Notes under the pieces: model-generated
The model's input: the letters and a program-made list of their open reading frames with translations, nothing else
What the model was told of the DNA's origin: nothing
The model's database searches: none
Program-made: the position numbers and the translations under genes
Shown: positions 24,658-51,205 of the stretch, piece after piece
Position numbering within the stretch: the first letter of the stretch is position 1
Layout: each line of letters opens with the position of its first letter
From: Thermanaerovibrio acidaminovorans DSM 6589
GTDB taxonomy: Bacteria > Synergistota > Synergistia > Synergistales > Synergistaceae
Assembly (NCBI RefSeq): GCF_000024905.1
Contig: NC_013522.1
Span: 558,001 to 622,000 of the forward strand
Direction of reading: 5' to 3'
DNA length: 64,000 nt

Positions 24658-24849
24658 CAAGGTAGCCCTGTGGTGTTCGTGGAAGGGGTGTAGTGTCTTG
24701 AGCCAACACTTTGTACACCCGCCGGGGCCTTCTCCGTTCCGGTGATGACAGCCCTCGTTGGCAGTCTGATTCCAAGGTTTGGGGGGCCCCAAGATTTTAG
24801 GAAGCGGGTCAAGGCCTTCCCCTCACGGCATTGCGGGGTTAACCTTTTT
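24658..24849 (+). ncRNA. ssrS: 6S RNA candidate
   Basis: A transcript of about 180-190 nt is predicted between the HATPase and HAD genes. Its ends form a long closing stem: 24666-24688 pairs with about 24815-24838 through roughly 20 base pairs, interrupted by a bulged C and a bulged AA. Many pairs are G-U, which would be A-C mismatches on the other strand, so the plus strand is the RNA. The 5' half contains CUUGAGCCAACAC after the closing stem, resembling CCUGAGCCGAUA of proteobacterial 6S RNA. A good promoter precedes it and a T5 tract (24845-24849) follows. 6S RNA binds sigma-70 RNA polymerase in stationary phase. Confidence 0.62.
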
Positions 24850-48316: not shown

Positions 48317-49222
48317 TCATCCCTGGTAGTCGAAGATGGGGGTGCTGAAGTACCTCTCCCCCCGATCGCCGAAGATGACCACGATGTTGCCCGACTCCAT
48401 GGTCTTGGCCAGCTCCTGGGCGGCGTGGAGGGTTGCCCCGGAGGACATGCCCGCCATGATGCCCTCCTTGGCGGATATGGACCTGGCGCCGGCGATGGCG
48501 TCGTCCCGGCTCACGTCGATGATCCCCGCCAGCAGGCTCCTGTCCGCGATGAGGGGCTGGTAGGCCTCGGAACGGTGCTTGAGCCCGTCGATGCCCCCTG
48601 TGTTGGGCATGGGTTCCACCCCGTACACCTTGGCGGATACCCCCTTGTCCACGAAGGCCTTGGCCACCCCCATGAGGCAGCCGCCGGTGCCGAAGCCCGC
48701 CACGAAGGCGTCCACCTTCTCCCCATGCTGGTGGAGCTGCTCTATGATCTCTATCCCGGTGCCCCTCCGATGGGCCTCCACGTTGTCCCGGTTCTCGTTC
48801 TGGTTAACGTAGAAGCAGTCCGGATGCTCCTTGGCGTAGGCCATGGCGGACAGGATGTGGCTGTCCGGGTCGTCCTTGGTGGTCAGCACCAGGTCCGCCC
48901 CCCAGTACTTGAGGATCTTCCTCCGCTCGATGGTCTTGGCCTCGGACATGAAGATCTTGAGCTTGTATCCCTTCACCGCCGCCACCATCCCGAGGGCTAT
49001 GCCGGTGTTGCCGCTGGTGGCCTCCACCAGGGTCATCCCGGGCTTGAGCTCCCCCCTGGCCTCGGCCCCCTCCACCATGGACAGGGCCACCCGGTCCTTC
49101 AGTGAGCCGCTGGGATTCAACATCTCCAGCTTGGCCCATATCTTGACCTTCGGGTTGGTGGACGAGTTCCTCAACAAGACCAGCGGGGTGTTGCCCACGT
49201 GGGCCAGTATGCCTTCTCTCAC
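48317..49222 (-). CDS. cysK: Cysteine synthase (O-acetylserine sulfhydrylase)
   Basis: The 301-residue PLP enzyme makes cysteine from O-acetylserine and sulfide. It has ILAHVGNTPLVLL, the PLP Lys in LEMLNPSGSLKDRVALSMV, VEATSGNTGIALGMVAAVKG (phosphate and substrate loop), and VAGFGTGGCLMGVAKAFVD. GTG 49222 is the start, with AGGAGG 8 bp upstream; an in-frame upstream extension is rejected. Confidence 0.96.
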   Translation of the reverse strand: MREGILAHVGNTPLVLLRNSSTNPKVKIWAKLEMLNPSGSLKDRVALSMVEGAEARGELKPGMTLVEATSGNTGIALGMVAAVKGYKLKIFMSEAKTIERRKILKYWGADLVLTTKDDPDSHILSAMAYAKEHPDCFYVNQNENRDNVEAHRRGTGIEIIEQLHQHGEKVDAFVAGFGTGGCLMGVAKAFVDKGVSAKVYGVEPMPNTGGIDGLKHRSEAYQPLIADRSLLAGIIDVSRDDAIAGARSISAKEGIMAGMSSGATLHAAQELAKTMESGNIVVIFGDRGERYFSTPIFDYQG

Positions 49223-49346: not shown

Positions 49347-49375
49347 TTGACACCTTGACGCTTCTGGTGTACACT
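49347..49375 (+). promoter_or_regulatory. Promoter of the proC leader RNA
   Basis: A consensus TTGACA (49347-49352), 17-bp spacer and TACACT (49370-49375) point rightwards, with a start site near 49382, 209 bp before proC. Confidence 0.75.
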
Positions 49376-49381
49376 TCGGCC

Positions 49382-49570
49382 CATATCGGCCGGGAGGTGA
49401 GATGTTGAGTCGCATTGGGATGGCGAGCTTCGTTAACCCGCTCCCTAGCCCGGGGGTCCTTTGCCCCCCGGACAGGTTCCCCTTTGCGCCCTCAGCCCAG
49501 CCTTGAAACCGGTTCTCAGTTGAGTGGAGCATGGAGGGGTCGTCCGCCGGGGCGGCCCCTCATATTTTTT
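49382..49570 (+). ncRNA. Structured leader RNA upstream of proC
   Basis: A transcript of about 190 nt runs from the consensus promoter to a terminator only a few bases before the proC ribosome site. It contains a GGGAG...CTCCC element (about 49394-49448) with inner GGG/CCC and CGA/TCG pairs, a CCGGGGG/CCCCCGG hairpin (about 49458-49482), and then the terminator. No ORF with a ribosome site lies within. I recognise no riboswitch class or T-box consensus. It may be a transcription attenuator for proC or an independent small RNA. Confidence 0.5.
49534..49570 (+). terminator. Intrinsic terminator just upstream of proC
   Basis: GAGGGG (49534-49539) pairs with CCCCTC (49556-49561), with an inner CCGC/GCGG stem and a bulged TCGT, followed by six T (49565-49570). 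The proC ribosome site begins 5-6 nt later, an arrangement typical of attenuators. Confidence 0.75.
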
Positions 49571-49590
49571 CACTGGGGAGGGGTTTTCGA

Positions 49591-50436
49591 ATGGACAGGA
49601 GAAGGTTGAAGGTGGCCATACTTGGGGCGGGCACCATAGGCGGGGCGGTGGCCATGGCCTTGTCCCCCCACTTTGACGTCTGCGCCACCCGGAGGAGGGG
49701 CTCCATAGCCCCCGGGCTGATCGAGGCGGGTGTGGAGGAGGCCCCCTCCAATCGGGAGGCGGCCGGGTGGGCGGACCTGGTGATCCTGTCGGTGAAGCCC
49801 AAGCAGGTGATGCCGGTGCTGGAGGAGATATCTTCCGTGGAGGGACCCAGGCTTCTGATCTCCCTGGCGGCCGCCATGCCCACCTGGATACTCGAGAGGA
49901 TATGTCACATTCCGGTGATAAGGGCCATGACCAACACCGCCTGTCGGATAAGGCGGGGCTACACGGTCTACGCCAACGGCAGGGGGGTCTCCCAGGCGGA
50001 GGAGGACCTGGCCCGGGACGTGTTCAGGTCCATGGGGAGCTTCGACCGGGTGGACGAGCAGCACCTGGACGTCCTGACCGCTATGGCGGGGAGCGGTCCC
50101 GCCTACATATACACCGTGCTGGAGGCCATGATCCTGGGGGCCCTGAAGGTGGGGCTCCCCAGGGACATAGCCCTCAAGGCGGCGGCTCACACCGCCATAG
50201 GGGCCTCCTGCCTCCTTCTGGACTCGGGGGACCACCCGGCGGAACTGCGGGACCAGGTGATAACCCCCGGCGGGGTCACCATAGAGGGCCTCTACGAGCT
50301 GGAGGAGGGCCGGGTCAGGACCGCCTTCATGCGGGCGGTCTTTGCCGCCTCCGCCAAGGCGGTGGAGCTGGCGGAGACGGTTAGAGGGCAGGCGGAGGTC
50401 CGGGACTCGGTTGAAAACCCCAGGGGAGTCAATTAA
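49591..50436 (+). CDS. proC: Pyrroline-5-carboxylate reductase
   Basis: The 281-residue NAD(P)H enzyme carries out the last step of proline synthesis. The Rossmann start is LKVAILGAGTIGGAVAMALS; other signatures are VILSVKPKQVMPVLEEI, IRAMTNTACRIRRGY, and the C-terminal MAGSGPAYIYTVLEAMILGA and DQVITPGGVTIEGLYELEEG. ATG 49591 follows GGGGAGGGG; an in-frame upstream extension runs through the terminator and is rejected. Expression probably depends on the leader RNA before it. Confidence 0.97.
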   Translation: MDRRRLKVAILGAGTIGGAVAMALSPHFDVCATRRRGSIAPGLIEAGVEEAPSNREAAGWADLVILSVKPKQVMPVLEEISSVEGPRLLISLAAAMPTWILERICHIPVIRAMTNTACRIRRGYTVYANGRGVSQAEEDLARDVFRSMGSFDRVDEQHLDVLTAMAGSGPAYIYTVLEAMILGALKVGLPRDIALKAAAHTAIGASCLLLDSGDHPAELRDQVITPGGVTIEGLYELEEGRVRTAFMRAVFAASAKAVELAETVRGQAEVRDSVENPRGVN

Positions 50437-50479: not shown

Positions 50480-51205
50480 TTGTCTCAGATGGATGGGCTG
50501 GACAGGTCAAAGGTGCTGGCCTCCGCGGTCCTAGGGGTGTGCCTGGTGGTGTCCGCCTTCGTGTTGGGGATGGCGGCGGACCGGATCAAGGGCAGCGAGA
50601 GGTACGTTACGGTCAAGGGGTTCTCGGAGATGGAAGTCCGGGCGGACCTGGCGGTGTGGCCCATAATGTTCAAGGTGTCCGCCAACGACCTGGGCACCCT
50701 GCAGCGGCTCAACGATAGGGCCAAGGGGGAGATAAAGGCCTTTCTGACCTCCATGGGCTTCTCGCCCCAGGAGATATCCGAGGCGCCCCCCCAGATAACG
50801 GACCTGAAGACCCAGTTCGCGGTGGATCAGGGGATGAGGATAGAGGAGCGCTACGTGTCCCAGAGCTACGTGACCTTGAGGACCGGCCAGGTGGACAAGG
50901 TCAAGGTGGCCATGGAGAGGGCTGGGGATCTGGTCAGCAAGGGGGTGGTGCTCTCCCAGGAGTATGGGGTGATGCCGGAGTTCATCTTCACCAAGCTGGA
51001 CTCCATAAAGCCCAAGATGGTGGCGGAGGCCACGGTTAGCGCCCGGCGCGCGGCGGAGCAGTTCGCCAGCGACTCCCAGAGCCGGCTTGGGGGGATAAGG
51101 CGGGCGGAGCAGGGTTACTTCAGCATCGAGGACAGGGACAAGGGCTCCCCGGACTACAAGCGGGTGCGGGTGGTTACCACCGTCCAGTACTACCTGGAGA
51201 ACTGA
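50480..51205 (+). CDS. SIMPL-domain (DUF541) protein, membrane-anchored
   Basis: The 241-residue protein has an uncleaved signal anchor (about residues 11-32: VLASAVLGVCLVVSAFVLGM) followed by a SIMPL/DUF541 domain, with ERYVTVKGFSEMEVRADLAV, SPQEISEAPPQITDLK, a middle repeat and VRVVTTVQYYLEN. The family includes BP26 and YggE, which form periplasmic oligomers; roles proposed include oxidative-stress protection. TTG 50480 has GAGGGGTGG 7 bp upstream. It may be co-transcribed with proC, 43 bp upstream. Confidence 0.88.
   Translation: MSQMDGLDRSKVLASAVLGVCLVVSAFVLGMAADRIKGSERYVTVKGFSEMEVRADLAVWPIMFKVSANDLGTLQRLNDRAKGEIKAFLTSMGFSPQEISEAPPQITDLKTQFAVDQGMRIEERYVSQSYVTLRTGQVDKVKVAMERAGDLVSKGVVLSQEYGVMPEFIFTKLDSIKPKMVAEATVSARRAAEQFASDSQSRLGGIRRAEQGYFSIEDRDKGSPDYKRVRVVTTVQYYLEN

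Follow-up and report, generated by a model that had tools for sequence, protein, structure and literature searches.

What decides whether transcripts initiated upstream of proC in Thermanaerovibrio acidaminovorans DSM 6589 continue into the gene? The region in question lies in a 64,000 nt stretch of contig NC_013522.1 (forward strand positions 558,001–622,000; hereafter the window, to which all coordinates refer). An initial annotation, made from the letters alone, described a consensus promoter, a leader of about 190 nt with several hairpins, and an intrinsic terminator directly before proC, and read this layout as an attenuator or riboswitch of no recognised class.

A promoter, a leader and a terminator precede proC

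The described promoter, ~190 nt leader and terminator are real, and could be located in the sequence as follows.

49347–49375, + strand: promoter, TTGACA (49347–49352) and TACACT (49370–49375) with a 17-nt spacer, read from the sequence
49534–49570, + strand: intrinsic terminator (strands 3:4), with a stem of 12 pairs at 49534–49561 and a T-run at 49565–49570
49591–50436, + strand: proC, pyrroline-5-carboxylate reductase (ATG at 49591; TIGR00112), the proposed regulated gene

The promoter matches the consensus at 10 of 12 positions (the region has two such sites, whereas shuffles predict 0.2), and its position predicts a transcript start at ~49382. The terminator is modelled at −24.9 kcal/mol, and 4 bases separate the end of its T-run from the ribosome site of proC (GGGGAGGGG, 49575–49583). 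The proC product scores 223.9 bits against the TIGR00112 cut-off of 196.75, and also carries the P5CR dimerisation domain. The 5' neighbour of the leader is a cysteine-synthase-like gene on the minus strand (GTG at 49222) with its own promoter-like site; since this gene is divergent, the terminator serves only proC-bound transcripts, rather than marking the end of another gene. On the other side, 52 bases 3' of proC and on the same strand, lies a gene for a SIMPL-domain (DUF541) protein (50489–51205, + strand). Given this spacing and orientation it may be cotranscribed with proC, and hence fall under the same control.

The overall folding energy of the leader is unexceptional (z −1.46; 17 of 200 shuffles are equally good). 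As this lies within the shuffled range, the several hairpins alone prove nothing; the evidence comes from relatives.

Related proC leaders share a proline-rich open reading frame

Comparison of the proC leaders across relatives revealed an element that is absent from the initial annotation: a short, Pro-rich ORF.

49392–49399, + strand: leader ribosome site GGGAGGTG, read from the sequence; comparable sites occur in relatives
49402–49506, + strand: leader peptide ORF of 34 codons, MLSRIGMASFVNPLPSPGVLCPPDRFPFAPSAQP, with eight Pro codons; counterparts occur in 11 other Synergistales proC leaders
49438–49452, + strand: putative control codons, i.e., the first Pro cluster at codons 13, 15 and 17 (CCG CTC CCT AGC CCG), assigned from the stalling model

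In the window, the ORF runs from ATG 49402 to TGA 49504–49506, behind its ribosome site. The same layout—promoter, Pro-rich ORF of 28–35 codons, terminator, proC—is common to 12 proC genes from 12 genomes, all of them Synergistales, in four families and eight genera. A TTGAC[ATG]-17-TANNNT promoter is present in 12 of 12 leaders, with the expected start 19–49 nt 5' of the leader ORF. The 11 counterparts of the window peptide are listed below by genome (G000 is the window's genome; G001 and G002 belong to the same genus).

G001: MKAAFDWSGFQMIPSPGSPWGSPEGCPLPVLGLRI (TTG start, chosen for the preceding GGAGGGG site)
G002: MTLCSWSAFQAIPSPGSPWGSPGGCPLPVLGLEV (TTG start, chosen for the preceding GGAGGGG site)
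G006: MAQHLRRLPSPCLPRPQAIFARGWSVLS
G045: MARTFIINTNPSPCPSVVPGRCVFREGLVLS
G054: MAYVTRNTNPCPCPTVMPGRCIFRGGLVLS
G050: MAGCFRTVHTINPCVPPVVGHRSARSGPPVS
G059: MSLKRRFDMALPCYPCPASRFPGVSRPCPGA
G067: MILNRRFDMALPCSPRPVSKHPGGGRPCPGA
G184: MRNTFIRISRSNPCVPPCTGKNCRRKGLVVS (GTG start)
G181: MQVSVRRTTRPNPCIPPRSRKSLSREGTVLS
G187: MIDILKRTARPNPCVPPRTRRNISREGLVMS

It is the architecture, and not the nucleotide sequence, that is conserved beside proC. A DNA search with the window leader in 60 relatives, two of the same genus included, matches only the leader itself, so nucleotide conservation fails even within the genus, while the order of promoter, ORF, terminator and proC persists. Reading of Acetomicrobium, of families f2, f5 and f8, and of part of f6 found a close proC but no such leader. 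A covariance model built from nine relatives (R1) recovers the leaders of G006 and of families f6, f7 and f10, together with two more of the same type (L185 and L191), neither used in building the model, at contig edges that cut off proC. R1 misses the leaders of G000–G002, including the window's own; common descent with the other families is therefore argued from architecture. The G000–G002 leaders may be strongly diverged or independently evolved, and we favour divergence, given that they agree with the others in position, promoter, length of the ORF and a Pro cluster at codons 9–19. A search with R1 for Pro leaders of genes other than proC turned up no convincing Pro-only case.

Taken by itself, the Pro codon count does not exceed what base composition would yield (264 of 5000 shuffles for the window leader); the Pro excess over shuffled codons is not significant in most leaders, many relatives being unremarkable. 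More telling is which residues persist. Four close pairs of leaders agree at 20 of 20 Pro residues but at only 62 of 101 others (Fisher p 1.8e-4), and outside the Pro codons the sequence changes rapidly. Pro conservation alone is no proof of coding, because pairing of C-rich RNA could also keep CC dinucleotides. In favour of the ORF, TGTCCTG at its end is kept as nucleotides although families f7 and f10 read it in different frames, and each frame remains open and contains Pro codons.

In several families a Cys codon, either TGC or TGT, follows or neighbours a conserved Pro (P-C-x-P, PSPC; ORFs of G006, G045, G054, G050, G059, G067, G181, G184 and G187). That the divergent neighbour in the window is cysteine-synthase-like is, alongside these Cys codons in relatives, probably a coincidence.

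Ribosome position is predicted to select between two folds

Two further structures were obtained from folding, in addition to the terminator.

49450–49471, + strand: predicted strands 1:2 hairpin, 49450–49456 pairing with 49465–49471
49467–49551, + strand: modelled antiterminator (strands 2:3), 49467–49502 pairing with 49511–49551 when the ribosome is stalled at the first Pro codons

In the model, the ribosome covers 13 nt, beginning with the first base of the A-site codon, upstream sequence is omitted, and the 3' arm of the terminator is as yet unmade; the energies depend on this assumed footprint. The predicted 1:2 hairpin is expected while strand 1 is free of the ribosome. When the ribosome sits on the early Pro codons, the 5' arm of the terminator is taken up into the modelled antiterminator, paired to the 3' part of the ORF and the bases just after it; moving the ribosome to the stop codon abolishes this pairing. 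On paper, the antiterminator and terminator folds are mutually exclusive. In a scan of ribosome positions along the window leader, the modelled sequestration of the terminator arm is strongest in the region of the first Pro cluster, at about −18 kcal/mol for codons 14–18, weakening to about −12 at earlier codons and −6 to −9 at later ones.

Across the set, 10 of 12 leaders in the stalled state sequester the 5' arm of the terminator more strongly than dinucleotide shuffles do (mean z −1.06; the G050 and G184 leaders show no sequestration beyond chance), and none sequesters it more when the ribosome is at the stop codon. For the window leader alone the effect is modest (11 of 300 shuffles). The sequestration peak coincides with the first three Pro codons more closely than in nearly all circular shifts (2 of 5000 as good for the 12 leaders, 35 of 5000 with one leader per lineage), a choice of codons made post hoc, after the window profile; over all Pro codons the same test is weaker (97 of 5000 and 493 of 5000, respectively).

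Covariation in proC upstream regions, a check suggested with the initial annotation, gave a divided outcome. The terminator stem covaries among nine relatives, with changes on both sides in 6 of 11 pairs (0 of 500 shuffles). Strands 1:2 and 2:3 differ in register from lineage to lineage, so column-wise covariation could not be demonstrated for them.

The leader as a probable proline attenuator

We propose that the proC leader is very probably a ribosome-mediated (trp-type) transcription attenuator that reads charged tRNA-Pro. The genomes display the parts and the conservation of their arrangement; from these we infer translation of the leader ORF, stalling of the ribosome, and a response to proline. 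Four features of such attenuators are found here: (i) a promoter and an intrinsic terminator in a 5' leader before a gene, (ii) a short ORF, conserved among relatives, with a ribosome site and several codons for the amino acid of the pathway, (iii) exclusive folds set by ribosome position, in this case modelled, and significant over the set while modest singly, and (iv) a downstream gene, proC, that belongs to proline synthesis.

The proposed sequence of events is as follows. RNA polymerase would start at ~49382, followed by a ribosome translating the 34-codon leader peptide. The leader would comprise four strands: strand 1 holds the control codons and pairs with strand 2 when there is no stalled ribosome, strands 2 and 3 make the antiterminator, and strands 3 and 4 the terminator. 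If Pro-tRNA is plentiful, the ribosome would reach the stop codon (49504–49506) and cover strand 2, the terminator (49534–49561) would form, and transcription would end near 49570. If Pro-tRNA is scarce, the ribosome would halt on the Pro codons at positions 13–17, breaking the 1:2 hairpin; the freed strand 2 would pair with the 5' arm of the terminator, permitting read-through into proC.

Alternative explanations

The best-surviving rival, though still an unlikely one, is a nascent-peptide arrest element, in which PSPG/PSPC or NPCxPP motifs, sometimes with Pro-Pro, stall the ribosome in answer to something other than low Pro-tRNA (e.g., the activity of EF-P or the supply of Cys). Either P-[SC]-P-[CG] or NPC[VI]PP is found repeatedly in different lineages, several families have Pro-Cys pairs, and prolines are described as intrinsically slow to translate (PMC8129111); on the other hand, the non-Pro peptide sequence varies widely, even between close pairs, and the target is a proline gene itself. 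In a related version, to which we give a similarly small chance, the conserved P-[SC]-P-[CG]/NPCxPP core would act as an arrest peptide responsive to proline, so that stalling would be tuned by the nascent chain as well as by empty Pro codons. If so, proC would gain a sensor of the translation of proline-rich sequences, e.g., via EF-P or a second, Cys input.

A metabolite-binding riboswitch or other structured RNA that senses proline or a related compound directly, the ORF being incidental, is more improbable again. The leader, terminator and gene order would suit it and the modelled structures are stable, but the undetectable nucleotide conservation in the 60 relatives and the unexceptional folding energy do not, and what conservation there is lies in the Pro codons and terminator. 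Nor does Rfam offer a match: a search of the leader with Rfam 15 at gathering and permissive (E up to 10) thresholds returned only chance hits far below cut-off. The T-box covariance model likewise gave no hit at E up to 10, in line with the original statement that T-box and common riboswitch boxes were not found. Of the initial choice between attenuator and riboswitch, the attenuator is the half that is supported, with a translated Pro-rich leader peptide as the most likely sensor. The remark that no known class was recognised overlooked leader-peptide attenuators, which are a known class.

A promoter with a strong terminator can also mark a small RNA gene, but that 49382–49570 is a stand-alone RNA (or an unregulated terminator) with proC reached by mere readthrough is the least credible explanation of all, as the Pro-rich-ORF arrangement recurs before proC in genomes with otherwise unalike leaders, no other Rfam small RNA fits the leader (no match at gathering score, so the unrelated small RNA family envisaged at the outset did not appear), and 6S RNA, the obvious candidate by size, is located elsewhere. 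6S RNA (RF00013) had been considered for the leader on account of length and terminator, and was rejected: the only match in the genome is at window positions 24662–24843. This 6S RNA gene (+ strand) scores 44.2 bits against the Rfam cut-off of 46.4, and scores are similar in most relatives; lying just below the threshold, 6S RNA is missed by the Rfam cut-off here.

Proline synthesis and known attenuators

In 15 genomes (G000 and 14 Synergistota), neither proB nor proA is found above curated cut-offs, in a search that 12 of 14 control genomes pass. Ornithine aminotransferase scores above cut-off in G000, G001, G002, G006 and G045. Proline is probably made from ornithine via pyrroline-5-carboxylate, with proC probably the only dedicated proline gene; the failure to find proA and proB, together with the presence of ornithine aminotransferase, makes proC a plausible control point. 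Genomes without the leader also lack proA and proB, so this lack does not explain the distribution of the leader.

The proposed proC attenuator shares with those of trp, his, leu, thr and phe a short ORF that is translated, has many codons for the amino acid of the pathway and lies directly before a biosynthetic gene, as well as a competing antiterminator and terminator. It differs in its amino acid (proline), its target (proC), its phylum (Synergistota), and in having a spaced P-x-P-x-P rather than a long run. None of the trp, his, leu, thr or phe leader families of Rfam matches the proC leader. T-box riboswitches on proline genes of Firmicutes sense tRNA-Pro charging and act by antitermination. 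A T-box binds the tRNA directly, whereas in the proC leader the proposed sensor is a translated ORF. In Salmonella, the Pro-codon leader ORFs mgtP and mgtL raise downstream transcription as Pro-tRNA charging falls (PMC3641672). These resemble the proC leader in being rich in Pro codons, but their targets, mgtCBR and mgtA, serve Mg2+ transport and virulence rather than proline synthesis, and the sequences are unrelated. Comparative genomics has predicted leader-peptide attenuators for hisS/hisZ in Firmicutes (PMC2965389) and for trp, ilv and cys in Actinobacteria (PMC1262725). The logic is the same; these studies do not cover Synergistota, and proline goes unmentioned in their main text. Structured-RNA surveys (PMC8632094) and work on histidine regulation in Synergistetes (PMC9413887) contain nothing on the proC leader. 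A literature search for proC/proBA leader peptides or attenuation in Synergistota returned no report; as most subscription journals lay outside its scope, this absence is weak evidence. The mechanism is a known one, and the target (proline synthesis) and phylum (Synergistota) are apparently new. The proposed proC attenuator would extend leader-peptide attenuation to both, and offers a specific, testable account of proC control in bacteria in which proA and proB seem to be missing and ornithine is the probable source of proline.

Tyr-rich leaders before a transporter gene

The R1 search for Pro leaders beyond proC also brought up a second type of leader. In about ten genomes, a Tyr-rich leader ORF (e.g., MPLAVGNVYNYYYAYSYPRCHNASGLLVFSAKPDLA, L194) and a terminator precede a sodium:solute symporter-like gene. 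These leaders (L193 to L198, L200, L202, L214 and L215) belong to family f1 relatives and not to the window's genome, G000, in which the sodium:solute symporter-like transporter was not found. The Tyr-rich leader is likely a tyrosine attenuator of the transporter. In G006, the symporter leader takes a Pro/Tyr form (L211).
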